A stretch of 64,000 nucleotides of DNA from Thioclava atlantica (GTDB taxonomy: Bacteria > Pseudomonadota > Alphaproteobacteria > Rhodobacterales > Rhodobacteraceae): contig NZ_AQRC01000008.1 of NCBI RefSeq assembly GCF_000737065.1, forward strand, positions 62,001-126,000, given 5' to 3'. Below are positions 42,548 to 55,044 of this stretch, one piece after another (within the stretch, counting starts at the first letter, position 1; the number at the start of each line of letters is the position of its first letter). The notes under the pieces are model-generated. The model made no database searches, was not told where the DNA came from, and saw only the letters and a list, made by a program, of their open reading frames with translations. The translations under genes and the position numbers were made by a program.

Positions 42548-43423
42548 ATGTTCACCGCCACGCTGATCGCCGACCCGAAAGAGGCCAATCTGGATCAGGC
42601 CACGCTCGATGCGCTCTGCGGTGCCTGGGGCGGGGGTGACGCGCGCTGGCTCAACCCCAATGTCGCGGCGGAATTCAGCGTCGAGGAAGTGCCCTCGAAC
42701 GCGGCGCAGAGCTGGGAGGGGCTGCAGGGGCTCGGCGTCGATCTGGTCGTGCAGCCGCGCGAGGGGCGCCGCAAGAAGATGCTCGTCGCCGACATGGATT
42801 CGACGATGATCCAGCAGGAATGCATCGACGAGCTGGCCGATGTGGCGGGCGTCGGCGAGCGGGTGAAGGAGATCACCGCGCGGGCGATGAATGGCGAGCT
42901 GGATTTCGAGGGCGCGCTGACCGAGCGGGTCGGGCTGTTGAAGGGCCTGCGCGAAGAGGTGATCGGACAGGTCATCGCGGAACGCATCACCTTCATGCCG
43001 GGCGGGCATGATCTGGTGGCGACGATGAAGGCGAACGGCGCCTATTGCGTGCTGGTCTCGGGCGGGTTCACGGCCTTCACCGGCTATGTCGCCGAGGCCC
43101 TGGGCTTCGACGAGAACCGGGCCAACCGCTTGCTGATCGAGGACGGAAAGCTGGTGGGTATTCCCGCCCAGCCGATCCTCGGGCGCGAGGCGAAGGTTCA
43201 GGCTTTGCTGGAAATTTCGGAAAGACTGAAGCTCGACCATGCCGAGGTGATGGCGGTCGGCGACGGGGCGAACGATCTGGGCATGCTGCACCTTGCCGGG
43301 GCGGGCGTCGCACTGCATGCCAAGCCCGCCGTGGCCGCGCAATGCGACATCCGGATCAATTACGGCGATCTGAGCGCGCTGCTCTATATACAGGGCTATT
43401 CGGTCGAGGAATTCGCCTCCTAA
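42548..43423 (+). CDS. serB: Phosphoserine phosphatase
   Basis: SerB removes phosphate from phosphoserine, the last step of serine synthesis. The 291-residue protein has a divergent N-terminal regulatory domain (about 1-70) and a HAD catalytic domain: DMDSTMIQQECIDELAD (nucleophile D82, acid D84), VSGGFTAFT, and the acidic motif VGDGANDLGML. It is divergent from serC-serA, so all three serine genes are together. The ATG at 42548 is used. Its stop overlaps the convergent nagA stop. Confidence 0.96.
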   Translation: MFTATLIADPKEANLDQATLDALCGAWGGGDARWLNPNVAAEFSVEEVPSNAAQSWEGLQGLGVDLVVQPREGRRKKMLVADMDSTMIQQECIDELADVAGVGERVKEITARAMNGELDFEGALTERVGLLKGLREEVIGQVIAERITFMPGGHDLVATMKANGAYCVLVSGGFTAFTGYVAEALGFDENRANRLLIEDGKLVGIPAQPILGREAKVQALLEISERLKLDHAEVMAVGDGANDLGMLHLAGAGVALHAKPAVAAQCDIRINYGDLSALLYIQGYSVEEFAS

Positions 43424-44553
43424 GCGAGCGGCGCGATTTCCCGGCCGCCCTGCCAGATCCGGGTGGGACGCCAGGTTTCATCGAAATGCACCAGATCGGC
43501 GGCGAGGCCCGGAGCGATCCGGCCCACGGGCGCGCCGATCTGTGCCGCGGGGATGCGCGTGGCCATCGCCAATGCGCGCTCCGGGGCGATGCCGACCGTC
43601 TCGATCATGAAGCGGATCGCCTGCGGGAGGGACAGATCCGCCCCCGCCAGGGTGCCGTCCTCGAGCCGCAGCGCGCCGTCGCGCCGCGCGATTCGCCGCC
43701 CGGCGAGATCGAAACCATCCAGCCCGGTCCCGGCGCAGGCCATCGCATCGGAAACGAGGAACACCTCGCCCGCCTGCTTGGCCGCAAGCGCGAGCCGGAT
43801 CGAGGCGGGGTGAACATGGATGCCATCCGCGATCAGTCCGGCCGAGACACCGCTTGCAAGGGCCGCGCCCACGAGCCCCGGTTCGCGCGAGCCGAGCTGG
43901 CTCATCGCGTTGTAGAGATGGGTGACCATCCGCGCCCCGGCCGCGATCGCCTCCTGCGCTTGCGCGAAACCGCAATCGCTATGGCCGAGACTGACGATGA
44001 TGCCCGCCTCGGAAAGCCGCTCGATCTGGCGCGGGGTCGCGGCGGCGGGGGAGAGCGTGACGATCAGCGCGGGCAGCGCGGTCTTCGCCTCGAGCAGGAT
44101 CTCGAGATCCCCCTCCTCCATCGGACGGATATGCTGGGGCGGGTGGCAGCCGGGGCGCCGGGGATCGAGATGCGGGCCTTCCAGATGCAGACCGGCAAAG
44201 CCCGGCACGCGCCCCACCGCCGCGATCCCGGCGGCCAGCGTGCTTTGCATCGCCGCGCGGCTGTCGGTGATCAGAGTGGGCAGCAGCGTCGTCGCCCCGA
44301 GCCGCGCATGGGCCGCACAGATCGTGGAGAGCGTCTCCAGGCGGGCATCGCCGTCCAGCATCACGCCCCCGCCACCGTTGACCTGAAGATCGACGAGGCC
44401 CGGCGCAAGCGTGCCGCCGGGGAGTGCGATCCGCCTGCCCTCGGGCGCGTCATCGAGCGGACACAGGCCGGAAATGCGACCCTGTTCCAGCAAGATTGCC
44501 TGGTTCTCGAGAAACCGCTCGCCGTCGAAAAGGCGCGCGCCCTGCAGGATCAT
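43420..44553 (-). CDS. nagA: N-acetylglucosamine-6-phosphate deacetylase
   Basis: NagA deacetylates GlcNAc-6-phosphate in amino-sugar use and cell-wall recycling. The 377-residue amidohydrolase shows LAPGLVDLQVNGGGGVMLDG, HLEGPHLDPRRPGCHPPQHI, the histidine-bearing SLGHSDCGFAQ and THLYNAMSQLGSREPG, and the catalytic aspartate in LVSDAMACAG. The ATG at 44553 overlaps the stop of the BadF-type kinase (ATGA), so kinase and deacetylase are coupled. Length matches the family. Confidence 0.94.
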   Translation of the reverse strand: MILQGARLFDGERFLENQAILLEQGRISGLCPLDDAPEGRRIALPGGTLAPGLVDLQVNGGGGVMLDGDARLETLSTICAAHARLGATTLLPTLITDSRAAMQSTLAAGIAAVGRVPGFAGLHLEGPHLDPRRPGCHPPQHIRPMEEGDLEILLEAKTALPALIVTLSPAAATPRQIERLSEAGIIVSLGHSDCGFAQAQEAIAAGARMVTHLYNAMSQLGSREPGLVGAALASGVSAGLIADGIHVHPASIRLALAAKQAGEVFLVSDAMACAGTGLDGFDLAGRRIARRDGALRLEDGTLAGADLSLPQAIRFMIETVGIAPERALAMATRIPAAQIGAPVGRIAPGLAADLVHFDETWRPTRIWQGGREIAPLA

Positions 44554-45371
44554 TCGCTCCAAAACGCATCCTCCATCGCCAGCGAAAGCGCACCGTCGAG
44601 CGCGGATCCGCGCGCGGGAGTGCTGGGCCAGTCGGGGAGAGCGAGGGTCGGACCGAGCCCGCCGATCCATGTCACCGGCAGATCCGATTCGGGCTGCAGC
44701 AGCGCGATCGCCTCCCGGATGTCGGACGCGGCTTCGCTGCGGATCGCGACCGCCGCCGGGTCTTCGGAGCCCAGCACACGCGGCGCGAGCGCGGCCCAGT
44801 CGGCGGGCGTCGCGCTCAGGCTGAACCGCAACAGCCCCGCGCCGCCATCCATCTGTTCGAGAAGCGTGCGCAGAAGGGGGGTGAGCGGGCAGAACCCGTC
44901 GAGCGCGCGCGCCGCGCGGGCCCCGAGCGCCCGGCCGATCCAGGCGCCCGATCCCTCGTCGCCGAGCCGCAGCCCCCAGCCGCCGATCGTGTGGAGATGG
45001 CCGTCGAGCTGGCGCGCGAAGACCGAGCCGGTTCCGAGCGCCGCGACGATCCCGTCCTCGCGCCCGAGCGCGCCGCGCACGGAGATCGTCACGTCCTGCA
45101 CCACGCGGGCGCGAAACGGCAGGCGGGTGACGAGCATCTCGCCCTGGCCGGAGAGGTTGGCGCCCGCGAGCCCGAGCACCGCGCGCAGTTCGCCGGGCGC
45201 GAACCCCGCCATCGCCGCATCGCAGGCGGCAAGGATATTGGCCAATGCACCCCCGAAATCGCTCGCGATATTGGCGGGGCCCGCCTCGCCGCGGCCGATC
45301 ACCCGGCCCGTCGCGTCGGCCAGAACCGCGCGGCAGCCGGTGCCTCCGCCGTCGACACCCAGAAAATGCAT
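44550..45371 (-). CDS. BadF/BadG-type sugar kinase (N-acetylglucosamine kinase candidate)
   Basis: The 273-residue protein belongs to the ASKHA fold. Phosphate-binding MHFLGVDGGGTGCRAVLAD opens it, a second phosphate loop lies in GIVAALGTGSVFA, and the ADP-binding GWGLRLGDEGSGAWIG and WIGGLGPTL follow. It is a BadF/BadG/BcrA/BcrD-type ATPase of the size of GlcNAc or glucosamine kinases. Coupling to nagA supports phosphorylation of GlcNAc to GlcNAc-6-phosphate. No amino-sugar transporter is adjacent, so the substrate could come from wall recycling. Confidence 0.85.
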   Translation of the reverse strand: MHFLGVDGGGTGCRAVLADATGRVIGRGEAGPANIASDFGGALANILAACDAAMAGFAPGELRAVLGLAGANLSGQGEMLVTRLPFRARVVQDVTISVRGALGREDGIVAALGTGSVFARQLDGHLHTIGGWGLRLGDEGSGAWIGRALGARAARALDGFCPLTPLLRTLLEQMDGGAGLLRFSLSATPADWAALAPRVLGSEDPAAVAIRSEAASDIREAIALLQPESDLPVTWIGGLGPTLALPDWPSTPARGSALDGALSLAMEDAFWSE

Positions 45372-45506
45372 CCCTGCCTCCGTTTTGAGCGTAACAGTGC
45401 CAAATCCCCGATCCGAGAGGAAGGGCCGTAACAACGCCTCGGCGTGAAACGACTTGGGGAAAGACAACGATCCCTCTATCACTGGGAAAAACCGACCGGG
45501 AGCTTC

Positions 45507-47621
45507 ATGCGCAAACCTTTGATATTCCTTGTCCTGATCGCGATCGCGGTGGTTGCGACGGTGCTCGTGGCCGATCCCGACCCCGACCGTCTGCGCGCGC
45601 TGCGCGATGGGGTCGCCGACTGGCAGGCGGCGCATCCGGTGGCGCTCCCGGCGGGCTTCTTCGCGCTCTATGTCGCGGTCACGGCGCTGTCGCTGCCGCT
45701 CGCGGTGTGGCTGACGCTTCTGGGCGCGGCGCTTCTGGGCTTCTGGAAGGGGTTGGTGCTGATCTCCTTCGCCTCCTCGCTCGGGGCGCTGCTGGCGTTT
45801 CTGGTGGCGCGCTACCTGATGCGCGACTGGGTGCGCGGGCGGCTTGGCCCGCGGCTATCGAAGATCGAGCGGGGCGTCGCGCGCGACGGCGAGTTCTTCC
45901 TGTTCTCGCTGCGGCTGATCCCGGTCGTGCCGTTCTTCGTCATCAACCTCGCCTTCGGCCTGACGCGGATGAAGGCGTGGCGCTATTATCTCGTGAGCCA
46001 GGTCGGGATGCTGCCCGGCACCGCCGTCTATGTCGCCGCGGGCGCGCAGCTCGGCACGCTCGACAGCCTTTCGGGGATCGTCTCGCCGGGGGTGCTCGGG
46101 GCCTTCGCGGCGCTTGCGGTCTTTCCCTGGATCGCGCGAGCCGCGCTGCGGTTCTGGGCGCGAAAGCGCGCCTATCGCGGCCTTGAGCGGCCCGTGAAAT
46201 TCGATCGCAACCTGATCGTGATCGGCGCGGGGGCGGCGGGGCTGGTGGCCTCTTATGTGGCCGCGCAGGCGCGGGCGAAGGTGACGCTCGTTCAGGACGG
46301 CCCGATGGGGGGCGATTGCCTGAATTTCGGCTGCGTGCCCTCGAAGGCGCTGATCGCCTCGGCGCGGGCGGCCGGCGCCGCGCGCGGCTCGCAAGCGCTC
46401 GGGGTGAAAGCCGAGGTCTCGGTCGATTGGCCGAGGGTCACGAAGCGGATCTCCGAGGTGATCGCGCAGATCGAACCCAATGATTCCGTGGAGCGTTACG
46501 AGGGGCTCGGGGTCGAGGTGATCGAGGGCCACGCGCGGCTCGAGGACCCGTGGACGGTGCGCGTGGGCGATCAGCGTCTGACTGCGCGCGGGATCGTTCT
46601 GGCGACCGGGGCGGCGCCGGTGATCCCGCCGATCGAGGGGATCGGATCGGTCGAGCCGCTCACCTCGGACACGCTCTGGGACGCGCTGGCGGCCCTGCCG
46701 GCGCCTCCCGCGCGCATGGTGATCCTGGGCGGCGGCCCGATCGGCTGCGAGATCGCGCAGGCGCTGGTGCGGCTTGGCGCGGGGGTGACGCTGATCGAAG
46801 CGGCGGAGCGGTTGCTGATCCGGGAGGATGTCGAAGCTTCCGATGCCATCGCTGCGGCGCTGCGCGCCGATGGGGTCGATCTGCGTCTTGGCGCGAAAGC
46901 GATCCGCTTCGGGCGCGATGACGGGAAATGGCTCGAGCTCGAGGACGGCACGAAGATCGGTTTCGACATGCTCCTGGTCGCGGTCGGGCGCAAGGCGCGG
47001 CTCGAGGGGTTCGGGCTGGAGGAACTGGGCATCCCGACGGGCCGCGTGATCGAGACCAACGACTATCTCGAGACGCTGATGCCGAATATCTACGCCGCCG
47101 GAGACGCCGCGGGGCCGCGGCAACTGACCAATGCCGCCGGTCATCAGGGCTGGATCGCGGCGGCCAATGCGCTCGCGGCACCCTTCTGGCGCTTCAAGGC
47201 CCATGGCGCGCCGATCCCGCATGCGGTCTTCACCTCGCCGGAACTGGCACGGGTCGGGATGACGGCGGCGGAGGCGGAGGCCGAGGGTGTCGCGCATGAG
47301 GTCACGACCTATCCCCTCGGCGATCTGGATCGGGCGCTGGCGGAGGGCGCGGGCGAAGGCTTGGTGCGAGTCGTGACCGCGAAGGGGTCGGACAAGATCC
47401 TCGGCGTGACCGTGCTGGGCGCTCATGCGGCCGAGGTGCTGGCCGAATTCGTGCTTGCGATGCGTCACGGGCTGGGTCTGGGCAAGATCCTCGCCACGCC
47501 GCATGTCTATCCGAGCTGGTCGGAGGCGGCGAAGAACGCCGCCGGGCGCTGGCGGCAGGCGCATGTGAACCCGCGCACGCTGCGCATCGCGGAGCGCTTC
47601 ATGACCCGGAGGCGCGGATGA
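45507..47621 (+). CDS. TVP38/VTT membrane domain fused to MerA-like FAD disulfide reductase
   Basis: This 704-residue fusion has two parts. Residues about 1-220 are a VTT/TVP38 (SNARE-associated, DedA-like) membrane domain, with hydrophobic segments at about 5-22, 50-70, 72-105 and 130-215 and the conserved FLFSLRLIPVVPFFVINLAFGL. Residues 235-704 are a pyridine nucleotide-disulfide oxidoreductase: FAD motif VIGAGAAGLVASYVA, redox-active pair C271/C276 (GGDCLNFGCVPSK), NAD motif ILGGGPIGCEIAQ and YAAGDAAGP. There is no MerA metal-binding N-terminal domain and no C-terminal cysteine pair, so mercury reduction is unlikely. It heads a coupled five-gene operon. Confidence 0.9.
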   Translation: MRKPLIFLVLIAIAVVATVLVADPDPDRLRALRDGVADWQAAHPVALPAGFFALYVAVTALSLPLAVWLTLLGAALLGFWKGLVLISFASSLGALLAFLVARYLMRDWVRGRLGPRLSKIERGVARDGEFFLFSLRLIPVVPFFVINLAFGLTRMKAWRYYLVSQVGMLPGTAVYVAAGAQLGTLDSLSGIVSPGVLGAFAALAVFPWIARAALRFWARKRAYRGLERPVKFDRNLIVIGAGAAGLVASYVAAQARAKVTLVQDGPMGGDCLNFGCVPSKALIASARAAGAARGSQALGVKAEVSVDWPRVTKRISEVIAQIEPNDSVERYEGLGVEVIEGHARLEDPWTVRVGDQRLTARGIVLATGAAPVIPPIEGIGSVEPLTSDTLWDALAALPAPPARMVILGGGPIGCEIAQALVRLGAGVTLIEAAERLLIREDVEASDAIAAALRADGVDLRLGAKAIRFGRDDGKWLELEDGTKIGFDMLLVAVGRKARLEGFGLEELGIPTGRVIETNDYLETLMPNIYAAGDAAGPRQLTNAAGHQGWIAAANALAAPFWRFKAHGAPIPHAVFTSPELARVGMTAAEAEAEGVAHEVTTYPLGDLDRALAEGAGEGLVRVVTAKGSDKILGVTVLGAHAAEVLAEFVLAMRHGLGLGKILATPHVYPSWSEAAKNAAGRWRQAHVNPRTLRIAERFMTRRRG

Positions 47622-48223
47622 TCGACGCCGCTCTCCTGCCCCTGCAGCGCGCGATGATGCAGCCGCCCGCCGAGGCCCTGGCCGCGCGCGGCATTCGCGC
47701 CGATCAGGTCACGGTGGCGGGCTTCGCGCTGGGCCTTCTCGCGATCCCCGCGCTGGCCTTCGGGGCCTATTGGCCGGCGCTGGTCCTGATCTTGCTCAAC
47801 CGGATCGCGGACGGGCTCGACGGCGCGATCGCGCGGATCAACGGCCCGACCGATCGCGGGGCCTTCCTCGATATCGCCTTCGATTTCCTGTTCTACGCGC
47901 TGATCCCGGTGGGGTTCGCGCTGGCCGATCCTGCGCGCAACGCGCTGCCCGCCGCGATCCTGATCGCCGCTTTCGTCGGCACCGGGTCGAGCTTTCTCGC
48001 CTTCGCCTCGATCGCGGCCAAGCGCGGGATGAGTGCCGAGAGCTATCCCACCAAGGGCATCTACTATCTGGGCGGTCTGACCGAGGGGACCGAGACGATC
48101 CTCTTCTTCGCCGCGATCTGCCTGTTCCCGCAGGCCTTCCCGATCCTTGCGGCGATCTTTTCCGCCGCCTGTTTCGTGACCACCGCGACCCGTTGGCTGA
48201 TGGGTTGGCGGGCCTTTTCGTAA
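47618..48223 (+). CDS. CDP-alcohol phosphatidyltransferase (YnjF-like)
   Basis: The 201-residue membrane enzyme carries the CDP-alcohol phosphotransferase signature DGLDGAIARINGPTDRGAFLDIAFD (DG-x2-DG-AR-G-x3-D-x3-D pattern, about residues 68-92), with about five hydrophobic segments. Members transfer a phosphatidyl group from CDP-diacylglycerol to an alcohol; the acceptor is unknown here. It overlaps the VTT-reductase by four bases. In E. coli a similar gene, ynjF, ends the ynj operon; here it precedes the ABC genes. Confidence 0.88.
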   Translation: MIDAALLPLQRAMMQPPAEALAARGIRADQVTVAGFALGLLAIPALAFGAYWPALVLILLNRIADGLDGAIARINGPTDRGAFLDIAFDFLFYALIPVGFALADPARNALPAAILIAAFVGTGSSFLAFASIAAKRGMSAESYPTKGIYYLGGLTEGTETILFFAAICLFPQAFPILAAIFSAACFVTTATRWLMGWRAFS

Positions 48224-48241
48224 ATCGGAGTGAGAGTGAGT

Positions 48242-49435
48242 ATGAGAACCAGAACCGCCGCGCTATCCCTGCTGGCCTTGCCAATGCTCGCCACCCCCGC
48301 GCTTGCCGATTGGGCGCAAACGCAGGCGGAGGCGAAAGGCCAGACCGTCTATTTCAACGCCTGGGGCGGGGATCCCCGCACAAACGCCTTCATCGAATGG
48401 GTCTCGGACCGGATGCAGGAGAGATACGGCGTGACGGTCGAGCAGGTGAAGCTCACCGATACGGCCGAGGCGGTGTCGCGCGTACAGGCGGAAAAGGCGG
48501 CGGGTCAGGACGAGGGCGGCGCGGTCGATCTCATCTGGATCAACGGGCCGAATTTCCTCGCGATGAAAGAGGCGGGTCTGCTGCATGGGCCTTTCGTGGC
48601 GGATCTGCCCAATGCGAAATATCTCGACCTTTCCGAAGGCGCGGCGGCGAGCACCGATTTCACCGTGCCGACCGAAGGCTTTGAGGCGCCGTGGCGGCTC
48701 GCGAAATTCGTCTTCGACTACGATTCCGAACGGGTGACGACGCCGCCCGCGGACATGGCGGGGCTGCTCGATTGGGCACAGGCGCATCCGGGCCGGTTCA
48801 CCCATCCCAACCCGTCGAATTTCATCGGCGCGACTTTCCTCAAGCAGGCGCTGGTCGAGATGGCGCCCGACCCGGAGGCTCTGGCCAGTCCGGTCACCGA
48901 TGCGGCCTATGACAAGGAAACCGCACCGCTCTGGGCGTGGTATGACCAGTTGCGGCCGCTGATGTGGCGCAAGGGCGAGGCCTTCCCGGAAAACGAGAGC
49001 GCTCAGGCGCAGCTTCTGGCCGATGGCGAGGTCGATTTCGGGATGCATTTCGACCCGGCCGCGCCGGCGGCGTTGATCGAGCAGGGCGTGCTGCCGCCTT
49101 CGGTGCGGGTCTGGGTGCCGCAAGGCGGGACGATCGGCAATATCTCCTTCGTCGCGATCCCCTATAACGCGGCGCACAAGGCGGGGGCGGAGCTGGTGGC
49201 GAATTTCCTGCTCGACCCGGCCACGCAGGCGCATATGCAGGATATCAGCGTCCTGGGCAGCTTCTCGGTGCTCGATCCGGCGAAGCTGGACGATGGGGCG
49301 AAGGCGGCCTTCGTGGGGCTGCCCACGGCGCCGGCGCTGCCCACGCTGGAGGCGCTCGGCCCGACCCTTCCCGAGCCGCATCCGAGCTGGATGACCCGGC
49401 TCACCGAGGATTGGGCGCGGCGCTACACGAAGTGA
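48242..49435 (+). CDS. ABC transporter substrate-binding protein (YnjB-like)
   Basis: The 397-residue periplasmic protein has a signal peptide (MRTRTAALSLLALPMLATPALA) and a type II binding-protein fold of the ThiB/YnjB/iron class: GQTVYFNAWGGDPRTNAFIEWV at the N-terminus, AVDLIWINGPNFLAMKEAGLL, and GTIGNISFVAIPYNA. The ATG at 48242 is preferred over a GTG at 48230, since it begins the signal peptide. The ligand cannot be inferred; YnjB ligands are not established to my knowledge. Downstream permease and ATPase complete the importer. Confidence 0.88.
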   Translation: MRTRTAALSLLALPMLATPALADWAQTQAEAKGQTVYFNAWGGDPRTNAFIEWVSDRMQERYGVTVEQVKLTDTAEAVSRVQAEKAAGQDEGGAVDLIWINGPNFLAMKEAGLLHGPFVADLPNAKYLDLSEGAAASTDFTVPTEGFEAPWRLAKFVFDYDSERVTTPPADMAGLLDWAQAHPGRFTHPNPSNFIGATFLKQALVEMAPDPEALASPVTDAAYDKETAPLWAWYDQLRPLMWRKGEAFPENESAQAQLLADGEVDFGMHFDPAAPAALIEQGVLPPSVRVWVPQGGTIGNISFVAIPYNAAHKAGAELVANFLLDPATQAHMQDISVLGSFSVLDPAKLDDGAKAAFVGLPTAPALPTLEALGPTLPEPHPSWMTRLTEDWARRYTK

Positions 49436-49442
49436 GGTTGCG

Positions 49443-51098
49443 ATGCGGCTTGCCGGGCTGATCCTGACGCTGGTGATCGGCGGGCCGGTCGCGCTGGGCA
49501 CGGCGCTGACCGTCGCGACCGGTTTCGGCTGGCAGCCGGGGCTGGGGCGGGTGACACCGGGCTGGGGCGGGGTCATGGAGGCGCTTTCCCTGCCGGGGAT
49601 CGACACCTCGCTGCGGCTGACGCTGGTGACCGGGATCGGGGCGACGGTGCTGTCGCTCGCGGCCTCGATCCCGCTCTCGCGCTGGTTGGTGACGCGGGAG
49701 GCGTCGGCGCGCTGGCTGACGCCGCTGCTGGCGGTGCCCCATGCGGCGCTGGCGATCGGGCTGGCCTTTCTCATTGCGCCCTCGGGCTGGACCGCGCGGC
49801 TGATCTCGCCCTGGGCGACGGGATGGGATCTGCCGCCGCAGATCGTCACCGTGGGCGATCCGTGGGGGCTCACGCTGATCCTCGGGCTGATGCTGAAGGA
49901 AGTGCCGTTCCTGACCCTGATGACTCTGGTCGCGGCGGCGCAGAAGCCGCTGGCGGCCCAGATGGCGGCAGGCCGGGCGCTGGGTTACGCGCCGGGGCGT
50001 GCTTGGGCCCGGATCGTCTGGCCGCAGCTTTATCCCGCGCTGCGGCTGCCGGTGCTGATCGTGCTCGCCTTCTCTCTATCGGTGGTGGACATGGCGTTGA
50101 TCCTCGGGCCGTCGAACCCGCCGACTCTCGCGGTGCGGATCTTGCGGCTCTATGGCGCGCCCGATCCGGCGCAGGCGGTGCCGGCCTCGGCGCTGGCGGT
50201 GCTGTTGCTGGCGGTGATGGCGGGATGCGCCGGCCTCTGGCTGACGGGAGAGCGGGCGATCGCCGCGCTCGGGCGGCGCGCGGTCGCGGCGGGGCGGCGA
50301 GGACATGCCCGGCGCAACTGGATCGGGGGGTGGCCCGCCGCCGTCGGCGGTGTTCTCACGCTCGGATCGCTGGGCGCGCTGGTGCTTTGGAGCCTCGCGA
50401 GTATCTGGCGCTTCCCCGAAGCGGTCCCGGCGCGCCTGAGCCTGCAACGATGGGCCGCCGCGGACTGGGCCGGACCCTTCGCCACGAGCCTCGCTCTGGC
50501 GGTCGCCTCGACCGCGCTGGCGCTGATGCTCGCGGTCCTGTGGCTCGAAAGCGAGGATCGCGCGGGAAGGCGCCTGCCGCTCGGTGCGCTGATCGTGCTG
50601 CCGCTTCTGCTGCCGCAGATCGGCTTCCTGCAAGGACTGACGACCGGCTTTCTCTGGCTGGGCCTGCCGCCCGGGGCGGTGGCGGTGACATGGGCGGAAC
50701 TGCTCTTCGTCTTTCCCTATGTGATGATCGCGCTGGCGGGGCCGTGGCGCGCGCTCGATCCGGGGCTGCTGGCGAGTGCCGCGAGCCTGGGTGCGGGGCC
50801 GGGGCGCAGGCTCTGGCGGGTGAAACTGCCGGTTCTTCTCGGGCCGCTCGCGGCGGCGGCGGCGATCGGGGTGGCGGTGTCGGTCGCGCAATATCTCGCC
50901 GTGCTGCTGCCGGGGGCGGGACGCGTTCAGGCGCTCGCGACGGAGGCGGTGGCGCTCGCCTCGGGGGCGGATCGGCGGCTCGCCGCGGTGCTCGCACTGA
51001 TGCAGGCGGCGCTTCCCTGGGCCGGGTTCGCGCTGGCGCTCGCGCTCCCCGCCTGGTGGCATCGCAACCGCAAGGGCCTTCGGGGAGGACTGGCATGA
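49443..51098 (+). CDS. ABC transporter permease, tandem fused (YnjC-like)
   Basis: The 551-residue inner-membrane protein contains two BPD-type permease units. Each carries an EAA-like loop: AAGRALGYAPGRAWARIVWPQL in the first half and ASAASLGAGPGRRLWRVKLPVLLG in the second. About twelve hydrophobic segments are present. Such fused permeases (as in ThiP or FbpB) form the whole channel with one ATPase dimer. It starts eight bases after the binding-protein gene and overlaps the ATPase gene by four. Confidence 0.9.
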   Translation: MRLAGLILTLVIGGPVALGTALTVATGFGWQPGLGRVTPGWGGVMEALSLPGIDTSLRLTLVTGIGATVLSLAASIPLSRWLVTREASARWLTPLLAVPHAALAIGLAFLIAPSGWTARLISPWATGWDLPPQIVTVGDPWGLTLILGLMLKEVPFLTLMTLVAAAQKPLAAQMAAGRALGYAPGRAWARIVWPQLYPALRLPVLIVLAFSLSVVDMALILGPSNPPTLAVRILRLYGAPDPAQAVPASALAVLLLAVMAGCAGLWLTGERAIAALGRRAVAAGRRGHARRNWIGGWPAAVGGVLTLGSLGALVLWSLASIWRFPEAVPARLSLQRWAAADWAGPFATSLALAVASTALALMLAVLWLESEDRAGRRLPLGALIVLPLLLPQIGFLQGLTTGFLWLGLPPGAVAVTWAELLFVFPYVMIALAGPWRALDPGLLASAASLGAGPGRRLWRVKLPVLLGPLAAAAAIGVAVSVAQYLAVLLPGAGRVQALATEAVALASGADRRLAAVLALMQAALPWAGFALALALPAWWHRNRKGLRGGLA

Positions 51099-51733
51099 GC
51101 CTCGAACTGCTCGACGTGAGCCTGACCGCGCCGGACGCGCGCGCCCCGCTTTTCGCTCCGCTCTCCTTGCGCGTCGCGCCGGGGGAGGTGGTCTGCGTGA
51201 TGGGCCCCTCCGGCATCGGCAAGTCGAGCCTTCTTGCGCATATCGGCGGCCACCTGCCGCGCGGGTTTCGCACGACAGGCTCGGTGCGGCTCGAGGGGGT
51301 AGAGGTGATGCGGCTGCCGGCGGAACGGCGCGGGATCGGGATGCTGTTCCAGCAGGCGCAGCTCTTCCCGCATCTCTCGGTGGGCGACAATCTCGCCTTC
51401 GGCCTCGCAGCGCATCTCAAGGGCCGGTCGGCGCGCAAGGCGGCGGTGGCGCGAGCGCTCGGGCAGGCGGGGCTTGCCGGAATGGAGGATCGCGACCCGG
51501 CGACGCTGTCGGGCGGGCAACGCACACGAGTCGCGCTGATGCGCGCGCTTCTGGCCGAGCCGCGCGCGATCCTGATCGACGAGCCCTTCGCCGCGCTCGA
51601 TGCCGATCTGCGCGCCGAGATCCGCGCCTTCGTGCTCGGTCATATCCGGGCCCGCGCGATCCCCGCCTTGATGGTGAGTCATGACGAGAGCGACGCGCAG
51701 GCCGCGGCGCGGGTGGTGACCCTGCGGCGCTGA
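51095..51733 (+). CDS. ABC transporter ATP-binding protein (YnjD-like)
   Basis: The 212-residue ATPase powers the YnjBC-like importer. Walker A is GPSGIGKSSL, the Q-loop is LFQQAQLFPHLSV, the signature is LSGGQRTRVALMRALL, Walker B is ILIDEPFAALD and the switch histidine is in VSHDESDA. It is short, without a regulatory C-terminal domain, matching the YnjD/ThiQ size. It ends the coupled operon 45507-51733. Confidence 0.93.
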   Translation: MSLELLDVSLTAPDARAPLFAPLSLRVAPGEVVCVMGPSGIGKSSLLAHIGGHLPRGFRTTGSVRLEGVEVMRLPAERRGIGMLFQQAQLFPHLSVGDNLAFGLAAHLKGRSARKAAVARALGQAGLAGMEDRDPATLSGGQRTRVALMRALLAEPRAILIDEPFAALDADLRAEIRAFVLGHIRARAIPALMVSHDESDAQAAARVVTLRR

Positions 51734-51799
51734 GCGCACCGGCGGATCTCCGCGCATGCAGGCTTGCGAGACCCCGGTACAGGCCTTATTCCCAAGGGC

Positions 51800-52450
51800 A
51801 TGTTCGCAAACCCCGTCTTCCGCCACGCCCGCGCCCTTGCCGTTCTCACGGCGCTGATCGGCACGCTTTCCGGCTGCGTGCCGGGGGAGTTCGGCACGGC
51901 CCAGGTCGCCCAGTCGCGCACCAAGCTCGCCAATGGCGCGCTGACCGTGACCGCGCCGAAAGGCTGGTGCATCGACCCCAAGAGCCTGCGCGATTCCGGC
52001 GCGGGGGGCTTTGCGCTCTTCGGCAATTGCGCCGCGATTTCCCGCAATCCCGATGATGCCCATGCCCCGCTGCCCGCGCTTCTGAGCGTGACGGTCGGTC
52101 CGCCCGCCGTCACGGATGCGAGCGGCACGTTCGGAAAGGACCGGCTCCCCCAGAACGGAACCTTCTTCCGCTCCGAGCTTGGCCGGGCAGCGCTCGCGCG
52201 GTCGGGGGAAGCGGGCGACGTGACGATCGACAAGTCCGAGATCTCGGGCGACGTGCTGATGCTGCGCGTGACCGACCGCTCGAAGCAGGGCGGCCCGCCC
52301 GTCGCCGATACCTATCTGCGCGGGATCAGCGATATCGGCGGGCGGATCGTCGCGCTCTCGGTGATGCCGCTCAAGGATGGCGAGATGAGTTATGACGCTC
52401 AACGTCGCCTTTTGCGCGAATTCGTCGCGGCGATCCGCGCCGCGAACTGA
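51800..52450 (+). CDS. Hypothetical lipoprotein
   Basis: The 216-residue protein starts MFANPVFRHARALAVLTALIGTLSGCVPG, with a lipobox LSGC (lipidation at about C26). It is otherwise a globular domain with GALTVTAPKGWCIDPKSLR and LFGNCAAIS; two Cys in the mature part could pair. The C-terminal half contains DKSEISGDVLMLRVTDRS and ends in a helix. I do not recognise a family. It follows the ABC operon after 66 bases, apparently as its own unit. Confidence 0.7.
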   Translation: MFANPVFRHARALAVLTALIGTLSGCVPGEFGTAQVAQSRTKLANGALTVTAPKGWCIDPKSLRDSGAGGFALFGNCAAISRNPDDAHAPLPALLSVTVGPPAVTDASGTFGKDRLPQNGTFFRSELGRAALARSGEAGDVTIDKSEISGDVLMLRVTDRSKQGGPPVADTYLRGISDIGGRIVALSVMPLKDGEMSYDAQRRLLREFVAAIRAAN

Positions 52451-52584
52451 GCGCCCCCCCGACAAGACCAGCCACCGCAGCAGATTTGCCCTTTTCGTGA
52501 GGGGCTTGATAAGAAATAAGTGGTGTCGTTGGGCCGGGTCCGTTGGCCCGGAACGCGGCGAGGCGAAGGGGGACGATCGGGGCA

Positions 52585-53361
52585 ATGGCTGGGATGCGTG
52601 GCTCATCGCTGCTCGATCGGGTGCTCGAACGCCGCGCCCTGCGACGCTGGAACCGGGCCGCCCGCGCCACCAAGCAGATGGATGCCGAGGCCCTGCGCAG
52701 CCTGCGCGGCCGCGCCCGGCTCCTGCGCAACGCCCTCGAAGATGTTCTGCGCCAGAGCGAGGCGCGCCTGCGCAGCGCCTTTCCAGGGACGGCCGCGCTT
52801 CCCCGGCCCTCAGGGAGTGACTGGGTCTGGCGCCCCGAGATCTGGCGCGTCCCGGTGCAGCCGGTCGGTATCGCGGGGGCGGAAAACCGCACGATGCTCG
52901 GGCGCGAGCTGACGCTCTTTCACGATTGCCCCGCCTCCGAGATCACCCTGCGCCAGATCCGCACCAGCGGCCCCGGCACGGTCGCACCCTACGGGTTGCG
53001 GATGGACGTGCTGCGCTTCGAGGGCTCGTTTCTCTCCTTCGTGCTCGACCTGCCCGAAAGCGCGCTGCGCGGGTTGCAGCTCAATCACCTGCTGCGTCTG
53101 GAGATGGATGTCGCGATGGAGCGGCCGCTGGAGATCTTCTGCCGGCTCAACATCAAGCACGGTCCCAATAGCGAGCAGCTCGTGCGGGAATTGCCGCCCG
53201 GCGGCGGTGGCCAATTCGTGGAATTCGATCTCGCCTATACCCGGATGAACGAGCGGCGGCTCGAGAAGGCCTGGGTGGATATCATCTTCGAAAGCCCGCG
53301 CATGAACGAAGTCGTTCTGCGCGATATGACCTTCGCGCGCTATCCGCGTGCGGAGTTGTGA
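52585..53361 (+). CDS. DUF6478-like conserved hypothetical protein
   Basis: The 258-residue protein begins with a basic helical region (LLDRVLERRALRRWNRAARATKQMD, LRGRARLLRNALEDVL) and continues with a beta-rich domain: SDWVWRPEIWRVPVQPVG, GRELTLFHDCPASEITLRQIRT, LRMDVLRFEGSFLSFVLDLP and WVDIIFESPRMNEVVLRDMTFARYPRAEL. It resembles DUF6478 proteins common in Rhodobacterales; role unknown. The ATG at 52585 is used, with a TTG start at 52543 possible. The 116-residue gene follows 11 bases later. Confidence 0.75.
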   Translation: MAGMRGSSLLDRVLERRALRRWNRAARATKQMDAEALRSLRGRARLLRNALEDVLRQSEARLRSAFPGTAALPRPSGSDWVWRPEIWRVPVQPVGIAGAENRTMLGRELTLFHDCPASEITLRQIRTSGPGTVAPYGLRMDVLRFEGSFLSFVLDLPESALRGLQLNHLLRLEMDVAMERPLEIFCRLNIKHGPNSEQLVRELPPGGGGQFVEFDLAYTRMNERRLEKAWVDIIFESPRMNEVVLRDMTFARYPRAEL

Positions 53362-53371
53362 CGGAGGACGG

Positions 53372-53722
53372 ATGCTGGAAGCGACACGGATACGGGGCGG
53401 CTGTTGGGAGGCCACGAGCCGCATGCCCGAATCCCCCGATCTCGAGGTGCGCCACCTGGGCGAGGTGCTCGAGGGGCTTGCCGTTTCGGGCAAACCCGGA
53501 GACTGGCGCATCACCCAGCCGATCCCGGTTTCGGCGCTCAACGAGGGCGTGTTGAGCTTCCTCGTCTGCCGCAAGGGCGAAAGCGAGCCGATCGACAGCT
53601 TCACCCTCGTCGCCGGCGCCCCGCTGGCCGAGGATCTGCGCGCGGAGATCGACCTGCTGCGGGCCGAGCTCGACCTGTTGAAGCGGGCGTTCCGGCAGCA
53701 TTGCGCCGAGAGCGAGGCCTGA
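53372..53722 (+). CDS. Conserved hypothetical protein coupled to DUF6478-like gene
   Basis: The 116-residue protein contains a small beta-rich part (DLEVRHLGEVLEGLAVSG, ITQPIPVSALNEGVLSFLV) followed by an amphipathic C-terminal helix (LAEDLRAEIDLLRAELDLLKRAFRQH), a likely coiled coil. The ATG at 53372 follows GGAGG at 53363-53367. It has no recognised family. Being only 11 bases after the DUF6478-like gene, it probably works with it. Confidence 0.68.
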   Translation: MLEATRIRGGCWEATSRMPESPDLEVRHLGEVLEGLAVSGKPGDWRITQPIPVSALNEGVLSFLVCRKGESEPIDSFTLVAGAPLAEDLRAEIDLLRAELDLLKRAFRQHCAESEA

Positions 53723-53821: not shown

Positions 53822-54280
53822 ATGTCCAGGATCGAAGCGCGGCTCGCGGAGCTCGGCATCACCCTTCCCGAAGCGCCCGCCCCGGCGGCCAATTACGTGC
53901 CCTATGTGCGCAGCGGCCAGCACCTCTTCGTCTCCGGGCAGATCTCGAACGGTCCCGAAGGGCTGATCGTCGGAAAGCTCGGCGCCGGCATGGACGTGGT
54001 GGAGGGCGCGCTTGCGGCGCGGTTCTGCGGTCTCGCGCTGATCGCGCAGGCCAAGGCGGCGCTCGGTGATCTCGACCGGGTGAAACGGGTCGTGAAACTG
54101 GTGGGCTTCGTCAACTCCACCGCCGAGTTCACCGACCAGCCCAAGGTCGTCAACGGCTGTTCCGATCTGATGGTCGAGGTGTTCGGTGACGCAGGGCGGC
54201 ACGCGCGCTCCGCGGTCTCGGCGGCCTCCCTTCCGCTCGGCGTCGCGGTCGAGATCGAAGCGATTTTCGAGGTCGAGTGA
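53822..54280 (+). CDS. RidA-family protein
   Basis: The 152-residue protein has the RidA/YjgF/UK114 fold: YVPYVRSGQHLFVSGQIS at the N-terminus, VKRVVKLVGFVNS in the middle, and a C-terminal HARSAVSAASLPLGVAVEIEAIFEV that includes the conserved arginine. RidA proteins deaminate reactive enamine/imine intermediates from PLP enzymes. The N-terminal extension (about 20 residues) is typical of the longer subgroup, which may lack deaminase activity. Its stop overlaps the next gene (TGATG). Confidence 0.9.
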   Translation: MSRIEARLAELGITLPEAPAPAANYVPYVRSGQHLFVSGQISNGPEGLIVGKLGAGMDVVEGALAARFCGLALIAQAKAALGDLDRVKRVVKLVGFVNSTAEFTDQPKVVNGCSDLMVEVFGDAGRHARSAVSAASLPLGVAVEIEAIFEVE

Positions 54281-55044
54281 TGGCGCTTCATCCGGATTTC
54301 CTGCGCCTGCCGATCGCGCATCGCGCTTTGCATGACCTTTCCCTGGGGCGGCCCGAGAACAGCCGCGCCGCGATCCGTGCCGCGATCGAGGCGGGCTACG
54401 GCATCGAGATCGACCTGCAGCTCTCGGCCGATGGCGTGCCGGTCGTGTTCCACGATTATTCGCTCCACCGGCTGACCGAGGAAACCGGCCCGGTGCGCGG
54501 GCGCAGCGCCGCGGAACTCGGTGCGATCCGGCTCAAGGGCGGGGAGGAAGGCATCCCGACCTTCGCCGAGATCCTCGAGCTTGTCGGCGGGCGGGTGCCG
54601 CTTCTGGTGGAGCTGAAGGATCAGGATGGCGCGCTTGGCCTTTCGGTCGGAGCGCTCGAGGAGGCGGCCGCCGCGCTCTTGAAGGACTATGAGGGTCCGG
54701 TCGCGGTGATGTCCTTCAATCCGCATGCGGTCGAGGCTTTCTCGAGATACGCCCCCGACATCCCGGTCGGGCTGACCACCTCTGCCTATCTGCAGGATGA
54801 CTGGGCCTTGCTGCCTGTCGCGCGCGGCGAGGAGCTGCGTCACATCCCCGATTTCGATCGTGTGAAGGCGGCCTTCATCTCGCATGAGGCGAAGGATCTG
54901 AGCGCGGCGCGCGTGGCGGAGCTGAAGGCGCTCGGTGTCCCGATCCTGTGCTGGACGATCCGCTCGGTCGATGACGAGGCGCTGGCGCGTCAGGTGGCCG
55001 ACAACGTGACCTTCGAGGGCTATCTTTCGGCGCTGCCTGCTTGA
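54280..55044 (+). CDS. Glycerophosphodiester phosphodiesterase
   Basis: The 254-residue protein has the GDPD catalytic core IAHRALHDLSLGRPENSRAAI (HR and E), IEIDLQLSADGVPVVFHDYSLHRLT (E-x-D and HD) and the barrel segment LVELKDQ. It hydrolyses glycerophosphodiesters to glycerol-3-phosphate and an alcohol. No signal peptide is visible, so it is probably cytoplasmic. ATG 54280 shares a base with the RidA stop; a GTG three bases earlier is possible. Confidence 0.92.
   Translation: MALHPDFLRLPIAHRALHDLSLGRPENSRAAIRAAIEAGYGIEIDLQLSADGVPVVFHDYSLHRLTEETGPVRGRSAAELGAIRLKGGEEGIPTFAEILELVGGRVPLLVELKDQDGALGLSVGALEEAAAALLKDYEGPVAVMSFNPHAVEAFSRYAPDIPVGLTTSAYLQDDWALLPVARGEELRHIPDFDRVKAAFISHEAKDLSAARVAELKALGVPILCWTIRSVDDEALARQVADNVTFEGYLSALPA

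Follow-up and report, generated by a model that had tools for sequence, protein, structure and literature searches.

A five-gene operon at positions 45507-51733 of the 64,000-nucleotide stretch of Thioclava atlantica analyzed here (the window) is a common Rhodobacteraceae form of a widespread module to which no function has been assigned. It combines an ATP-binding cassette (ABC) importer of the Escherichia coli YnjBCD type with a cytidine diphosphate (CDP)-alcohol phosphotransferase, YnjF, and with a protein in which a VTT/TVP38 membrane domain is fused to a disulfide reductase (V-R). YnjB and YnjF form a near-obligate pair, a pairing that is new as far as our literature searches show. We read the operon as an import-and-lipidation module, in which an imported polar alcohol would be phosphatidylated and V-R would reduce the cargo or its carrier and move the lipid, and we assign this reading a probability of about one half.

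Co-occurrence of the module genes

We surveyed 398 Pseudomonadota genomes, drawn evenly, together with 100 Rhodobacteraceae genera, at least six genomes being in both draws. YnjB was counted when it exceeded the NF008633 cut-off, the YnjF subfamily by a profile of 17 proteins (E ≤ 1e-30) and V-R by a profile of 16 proteins (E ≤ 1e-150). Among the 398 genomes, YnjB was present in 51, YnjF in 60 and both in 49, with 7.7 expected (Fisher 2e-49, kinship being ignored). Co-occurrence beyond the window's own clade, on which the preliminary description of this sequence had staked its proposal, is thus borne out, YnjF accompanying YnjB in 49 of the 51 YnjB genomes of a phylum-wide draw. The two genes lie within 10 kb of each other in 35 of these 49 genomes and apart in the other 14, so the pairing is not mere operon hitch-hiking. 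YnjB exceeded its cut-off in one of 14 control genomes. The Rhodobacteraceae genera gave 40 with YnjB, 44 with YnjF and 35 with both, where 17.6 would be expected.

The V-R profile matched 67 of the 398 genomes, and 59 were counted as fused, including G018, which matches the reductase part only, and G122, which has a stop reported inside the match. Each of the remaining eight matches (G016, G226, G321, G325, G388, G390, G224 and G128) contains exactly one stop, and going by sequence these may be VTT and reductase genes that lie in tandem without being fused; YnjB is present as well in six of these eight genomes. V-R and YnjB share 21 genomes (7.6 expected) and are adjacent in 16 of them, and V-R is found beside YnjBCD in the family to which the window belongs as well as elsewhere in the phylum, in other families and other classes.

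Gene neighborhoods were read at 168 YnjB loci, the 80 closest from a public species collection and 88 from further genomes. The neighbors are mechanically called open reading frames (ORFs) chosen by conservation, and counts of them can miss genes. The module is no local oddity: among the 80 closest loci, 34 have both V-R and YnjF in the vicinity of YnjB. At 50 loci of the phylum draw (window excluded, neighbors scored within 8.5 kb of YnjB), YnjF was found at 34, V-R at 15, and a separate VTT gene, YnjE and YnjA at six each; DUF547 was found at eight, a TonB receptor at seven, and TIGR04282-like, TIGR04283-like and kinase-like APH family genes at four each. META-domain, methyltransferase, pseudouridine-synthase, chemoreceptor and amidase genes are also present among the neighbors.

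V-R and YnjBCD are combined in four gene orders among the loci read. The window and its relatives have V-R, ynjF, ynjB, ynjC, ynjD. Eight loci have V-R, DUF547, ynjB, ynjC, ynjD, ynjF, with a TonB receptor before V-R in six and between DUF547 and ynjB in one. The third order, ynjB, ynjC, ynjD, ynjF, V-R, is that of L130; at L126, 7.8 kb and an opposite-strand ORF separate V-R from YnjB. In the fourth (L092, L093 and L097), an APH gene and ynjBCD are followed by TIGR04283, TIGR04282 and V-R, both glycosyltransferase models being over their cut-offs in all three. These three loci and L119 have an APH-family kinase-like gene directly before ynjB (Pfam was checked for L092) and TIGR04283 and TIGR04282 genes after ynjBCD, so that genes predicted from sequence to serve import, phosphorylation, activation and transfer stand side by side. 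At L119, 4.1 kb separate the TIGR04283 gene from YnjB, and ORFs were called on the opposite strand of the interval.

The operon and its transporter

All five genes of the window operon lie on the + strand, head to tail, at confirmed coordinates, as the preliminary description had it for its unit of VTT-reductase, CDP-alcohol enzyme, binding protein, permease and ATPase. Its statement that they are joined mostly by 4-base overlaps holds for two of the four junctions (V-R/ynjF and ynjC/ynjD) and is overstated for the other two, which are gaps of 18 and 7 bases.

YnjF (47618-48223, +) is a CDP-alcohol phosphotransferase scoring 36.5 bits against PF01066 (cut-off 22). The catalytic motif of this family is D-x2-D-G-x2-A-R-x7/8-G-x3-D-x3-D, and it is intact in the window protein; D65, D68, G69, A72, R73, G81, D85 and D89 are invariant in 17 of 17 aligned YnjF proteins. 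Three further PF01066 genes exceed the cut-off in the same genome, so YnjF is an additional CDP-alcohol phosphotransferase and not the sole one. In G008 the neighbors of an unlinked YnjF, a phosphatidylserine synthase (110 bits against a cut-off of 107) and a phosphatidylserine decarboxylase (349 bits against 315), are in keeping with a phospholipid enzyme. Four related YnjF loci (L222-L225) have a HAD-type hydrolase gene in common, and at two of them (G183 and G208) a gene near YnjF matches only the NCBIfam ArsK model at the thresholds used, its 193 and 191 bits falling short of the cut-off of 400.

YnjB (48242-49435, +) is a periplasmic solute-binding protein whose assignment to the NF008633 subfamily rests on its NCBIfam score (490.8 bits, curated cut-off 203) and on comparison with E. 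coli; it is 91% identical to the YnjB of Thioclava marina. YnjC (49443-51098, +) holds both halves of the ABC permease in one chain; it has no Pfam match at E ≤ 0.001, and both halves match E. coli YnjC. The ABC ATPase YnjD (51095-51733, +) scores best against the PhnT2 and ThiQ models, far under their cut-offs. Six YnjB-like loci (L134, L166, L169 and L173-L175) have the permease split in two genes and YnjF not adjoining; they are possibly a separate subfamily that passes the NF008633 cut-off.

The structure model of YnjB (predicted local distance difference test, pLDDT, 89.9) was matched by Foldseek to the cluster-D binding-protein fold of FbpA, PotD and AfuA. There were 1046 PDB matches at E ≤ 0.001, and since ligands are diverse among the best 50 of these 1046, we do not assign the YnjB ligand from its fold. 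YnjBCD shares both this fold and the transporter type with the cluster-D ABC importers (FbpA, PotD, AfuA, PhnSTUV). It could therefore be an ordinary importer of iron, a polyamine, thiamine or a phosphonate, with YnjF and V-R as fellow travellers, and the leaning of YnjD toward PhnT2 and ThiQ, distant as it is, agrees with this. However, YnjBCD lacks the ligand residues of FbpA and PotD and has a fused permease and a YnjF partner. An adjacent tyrosine pair serves as iron ligand in FbpA, and Asp257 serves as polyamine ligand in PotD. In HMMER alignments the tyrosine pair falls on Pro/Ala of YnjB (a weak alignment, domain E 0.07) and Asp257 on Ser280, which is invariant, so that YnjB as an iron or polyamine binder is not supported. 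No equivalog model reached its cut-off among the NCBIfam matches listed for YnjB, YnjC and YnjD (for YnjD, the best 25 of 181). With YnjF also present in 49 of 51 YnjB genomes, 14 times unlinked, we consider an ordinary importer rather improbable.

The VTT-reductase fusion and its partners

V-R (45507-47621, +) has an N-terminal VTT/TVP38 domain of the COG0398 DedA type (VTT_dom, 83 bits) and, in the same chain, a complete FAD/NAD(P)H disulfide reductase (Pyr_redox_2, 203 bits; dimerisation domain, 91 bits) with a CxxxxC motif (C271, C276) and a C-terminal H666/E673 pair. These four residues are invariant across 16 aligned V-R sequences, and the window protein is 49-52% identical to V-R proteins outside its class. 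The structure model has a mean pLDDT of 81.5. By sequence, the best PDB relatives are dihydrolipoamide dehydrogenases and mercuric reductases, among the matches listed all covering the reductase half; phmmer found no PDB relative of the VTT half at E ≤ 1. Mercuric reductase carries a C-terminal vicinal cysteine pair. V-R has only Cys 271, 276 and 414, with none after position 414, and scores 345 bits against the MerA model TIGR02053 (cut-off 454), and we reject its identification as a mercuric reductase.

The fusion that the preliminary description had singled out is real but not a new feature, since Todor et al. (2023; PMC10127716) report COG0398 DedA joined to PF07992/PF02852 as the fusion most often met in the COG0398 subfamily. 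The domain architecture described there is that of V-R; YnjBCD, YnjF and ArsS are not reported as partner genes in its passages on the fusion. Other passages of the same paper describe some bacterial DedA proteins as undecaprenyl-phosphate flippases, set COG0398 apart as another subfamily and link COG0398 proteins to aerobic metabolism. TMEM41B is reported to be a scramblase.

V-R is not specific to the ynj module: elsewhere its neighbors are arsS clusters, DUF547 genes, or a nucleoside transporter together with YnjF. There are 44 places where V-R has no YnjB beside it, and the neighborhoods of 40 were read (G018, G122, G173 and G174 were left out). DUF547 is present in 15 of the 40 and immediately adjoins V-R in 14 of these, with or without ArsS; it adjoins V-R in eight other loci as well, on the YnjB side, and is thus a frequent partner of V-R. 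ArsS (arsS, TIGR04167) is present in 11, a representative scoring 453 bits (cut-off 300). TIGR04282/TIGR04283-like genes are found in eight, and in the one pair tested (L205) TIGR04283 was over and TIGR04282 below its cut-off. Six have an ArsM-like methyltransferase cluster, of which a representative scored 173 bits and stayed under the cut-off of 263. A TIGR03169-like oxidoreductase is found in five (one representative over the cut-off, another below), and a YnjF-like gene without YnjBCD in five. Two genomes in which no YnjB exceeds the cut-off, G087 and G353 (L195 and L197), have two genes between V-R and YnjF: one of 143 residues that matches no Pfam family, and one carrying three nucleoside-transporter Pfam domains, which in L195 scores 272 bits against the NupC model (below the cut-off of 442). 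An 8-oxoguanine-deaminase-type amidohydrolase gene (711 bits, cut-off 532) comes after V-R and YnjF in G012. Together with the ArsK-like gene near YnjF, these neighbors in G087, G353 and G012 suggest a riboside, nucleoside-like or arsenic cargo.

ArsS forms an arsenic-carbon bond in vitro. Counted at E ≤ 1e-60, it is present in 116 of the 398 genomes (114 over the curated cut-off) and, among the 14 controls, only in Synechococcus elongatus. It occurs in 26 of the 59 V-R genomes (17.2 expected, p 0.008). As this genome-level association is weak, the argument for a link rests on distance, V-R and ArsS lying within 10 kb of each other in 12 of the 26 genomes that have both. Neither YnjB nor ArsS is present in 12 of the 59 V-R genomes. 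YnjF and ArsS meet in a single genome, G366, and YnjB and ArsS in none of the 398, with 14.9 expected. This exclusion may be explained by kinship: the draw's ArsS genomes cluster in a few families, which counts against a functional reading, while families f43 and f62 contain V-R genomes of both the YnjB and the ArsS kind, in different genera, which favors one. In a quick V-R tree of 65 rows with SH-aLRT (Shimodaira-Hasegawa-like approximate likelihood ratio test) support only (nine of the closest loci retained; L215, L218 and L219, lacking the anchor motif, dropped), the YnjB and ArsS settings each require at least five changes on well-supported branches, so V-R has switched partners repeatedly.

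V-R is thus near ArsS in 12 of 26 genomes, and three loci (L092, L093 and L097) join YnjBCD and V-R to the TIGR04283 and TIGR04282 genes that accompany arsS in arsenosugar clusters. The genome of T. atlantica differs from such clusters, with ArsS absent at E ≤ 1e-60 and no TIGR04282, TIGR04283 or NF008823 (arsenite methyltransferase) match over cut-off; an arsenosugar cargo, if any, would therefore probably be imported. As far as our literature searches show, the link of V-R to arsenosugar clusters is new. One multi-term search of the DedA/TVP38/VTT literature gave no mention of arsenosugar, no search having paired only those two subjects, and searches for arsenosugar genes found little literature, PMC8801600 included.

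The same neighborhoods bear on the view of V-R as a detoxifier of metals or metalloids (mercury, tellurite, selenite), with the operon as a resistance unit. MerA and dihydrolipoamide dehydrogenases are close relatives of its reductase half, arsS and arsM-like genes adjoin V-R elsewhere, and in G183 and G208 the gene near YnjF has ArsK, an arsenite-efflux family, as its only NCBIfam match. Yet V-R lacks the C-terminal cysteine pair of mercuric reductase, and an importer and a lipid synthase would be odd parts for export or detoxification. We regard this explanation as quite unlikely.

Relation to the E. coli ydj-ynj genes

In BLAST comparisons with E. coli K-12 MG1655, identity was 55% over 192 residues for YnjF, 42% over 374 residues for YnjB, 48% for YnjD, and 41% and 37% in two pieces for YnjC; the VTT half of V-R matched YdjX (32%, E 6e-19) and YdjZ (35%, E 1e-12). 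This orthology and the survey support the earlier proposal that the operon is the same module as E. coli ynjBCD and ynjF with a membrane domain of the YdjX/YdjZ type. The two arrangements differ in that the window has a reductase fused to VTT, one VTT domain rather than two, and ynjF within the operon, whereas E. coli ynjF is opposite and downstream. YdjY, YnjA and YnjE, present in the E. coli cluster, gave no phmmer hit (E ≤ 0.01) in the six frames of the 64-kb window, to which this search was confined, and for the window the preliminary description was right to call YnjA- and YnjE-like parts absent. To our knowledge, E. coli YnjBCD, YnjF, YdjX and YdjZ are proteins without known function. 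YnjF went unmentioned in the literature searched, and YnjB, queried only jointly with YdjZ or with YnjC/YnjD, was barely mentioned. In the relevant portion of PMC2731931, a table of the E. coli BaeR regulon gives fold changes of 1.6 for ynjA and 1.4 for ynjB. A passage of PMC3836016, citing earlier work, states that YdjX and YdjZ, unlike other DedA proteins, do not rescue a cell-division mutant.

The preliminary description also linked the module to thiol redox, for which the reductase is indeed present and of which such a role is one possible reading among several. A thiol or oxidative-stress module, in which the importer supplies a thiol, disulfide or precursor that V-R reduces and YnjF serves general lipid repair, would suit the rhodanese YnjE and AhpD-like YnjA at six YnjB loci and the tie of COG0398 proteins to aerobic metabolism in passages of PMC10127716, but those six are the only ones among 168 loci and the dominant partner, YnjF (34 of 50), belongs to a lipid-enzyme family, so that it has a low probability.

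Flanking genes

Upstream of the operon and divergent from it are a NagA-type deacetylase gene (43420-44670, -; 269.5 bits, TIGR00221 cut-off 225.65) and a BadF/NagK-like kinase gene (44550-45635, -; under the NagK cut-off), probably amino-sugar genes unlinked to the operon. Downstream, genes at 51764-52450, 52543-53361 and 53348-53722 (all +) have apparent homologues behind YnjD in 14-15 of the 168 loci; these were matched by eye, and by the locus list the loci are all of Rhodobacterales type near Thioclava. The first of the three has no Pfam or NCBIfam match. A glycerophosphodiester phosphodiesterase gene (54277-55044, +; 84.9 bits), preceded by a RidA-like gene, lies about 2.5 kb beyond the end of the operon and could have a role in lipid headgroup turnover.

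Discussion

In the import-and-lipidation reading, a small polar alcohol would be captured in the periplasm by YnjB and carried into the cell by YnjC-YnjD at the expense of ATP, as their families suggest. YnjF would then transfer phosphatidyl from CDP-diacylglycerol to a hydroxyl of the cargo or of its product, giving a phospholipid with an unusual headgroup and cytidine monophosphate. Anchored beside its partners by the VTT domain, V-R would use NAD(P)H, through its CxxxxC motif, to keep the cargo or a thiol carrier reduced, and its VTT half may help to shift the lipid between leaflets, to judge from DedA and TMEM41B biology. In E. coli this role would fall to YdjX and YdjZ as separate proteins, joined by the additional redox and sulfur partners YdjY, YnjA and YnjE.

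Several observations weigh against this reading. The module has no known ligand, lipid product or phenotype, and Foldseek leaves YnjB unseparated from iron, polyamine, sugar-phosphate and γ-aminobutyric acid (GABA) binders. Twelve of the 50 phylum-draw loci are without V-R, VTT, YnjF, YnjE, YnjA, DUF547, APH and glycosyltransferase genes. YnjF occurs without YnjB in 11 of 60 genomes, and where it stands away from YnjB, or in a genome without YnjB, it has no constant neighbor in 20 loci. V-R has a partner range broader than YnjBCD and YnjF, and it is missing from 30 of the 51 YnjB genomes, which makes it a frequent helper and not a required part. All co-occurrence statistics, the Fisher test included, ignore kinship among genomes.

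The boldest candidate for the cargo is an arsenosugar-like riboside. In this extension, organoarsenic or organoselenium lipids would have V-R as their common last-step protein: ArsS genomes would make the arsenosugar, YnjBCD genomes would import a riboside (arsenosugar or its glycerol glycoside), and YnjF would turn it into an arsenosugar phospholipid with CDP-diacylglycerol. We advance it because V-R is close to arsS in 12 of the 26 genomes with both, because YnjB and ArsS share none of the 398 genomes, and because of the operons that run from the kinase-like gene and YnjBCD through TIGR04283 and TIGR04282 to V-R, the nucleoside (riboside) transporter between V-R and YnjF where YnjBCD is missing, and the distantly ArsK-like gene near YnjF. 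It remains speculative and is on balance unlikely. If it were true, the ydj-ynj genes of E. coli would be a salvage route for such ribosides.

Arsenosugar phospholipids are known from algae, and, with one literature search aimed at the question, we know of no enzyme assigned to their lipid-forming step. The near-obligate pairing of the importer with a CDP-alcohol phosphotransferase turns two orphans into one testable pathway, and should the cargo prove to be a riboside containing arsenic or selenium, YnjF would be a bacterial enzyme for arsenosugar phospholipids.

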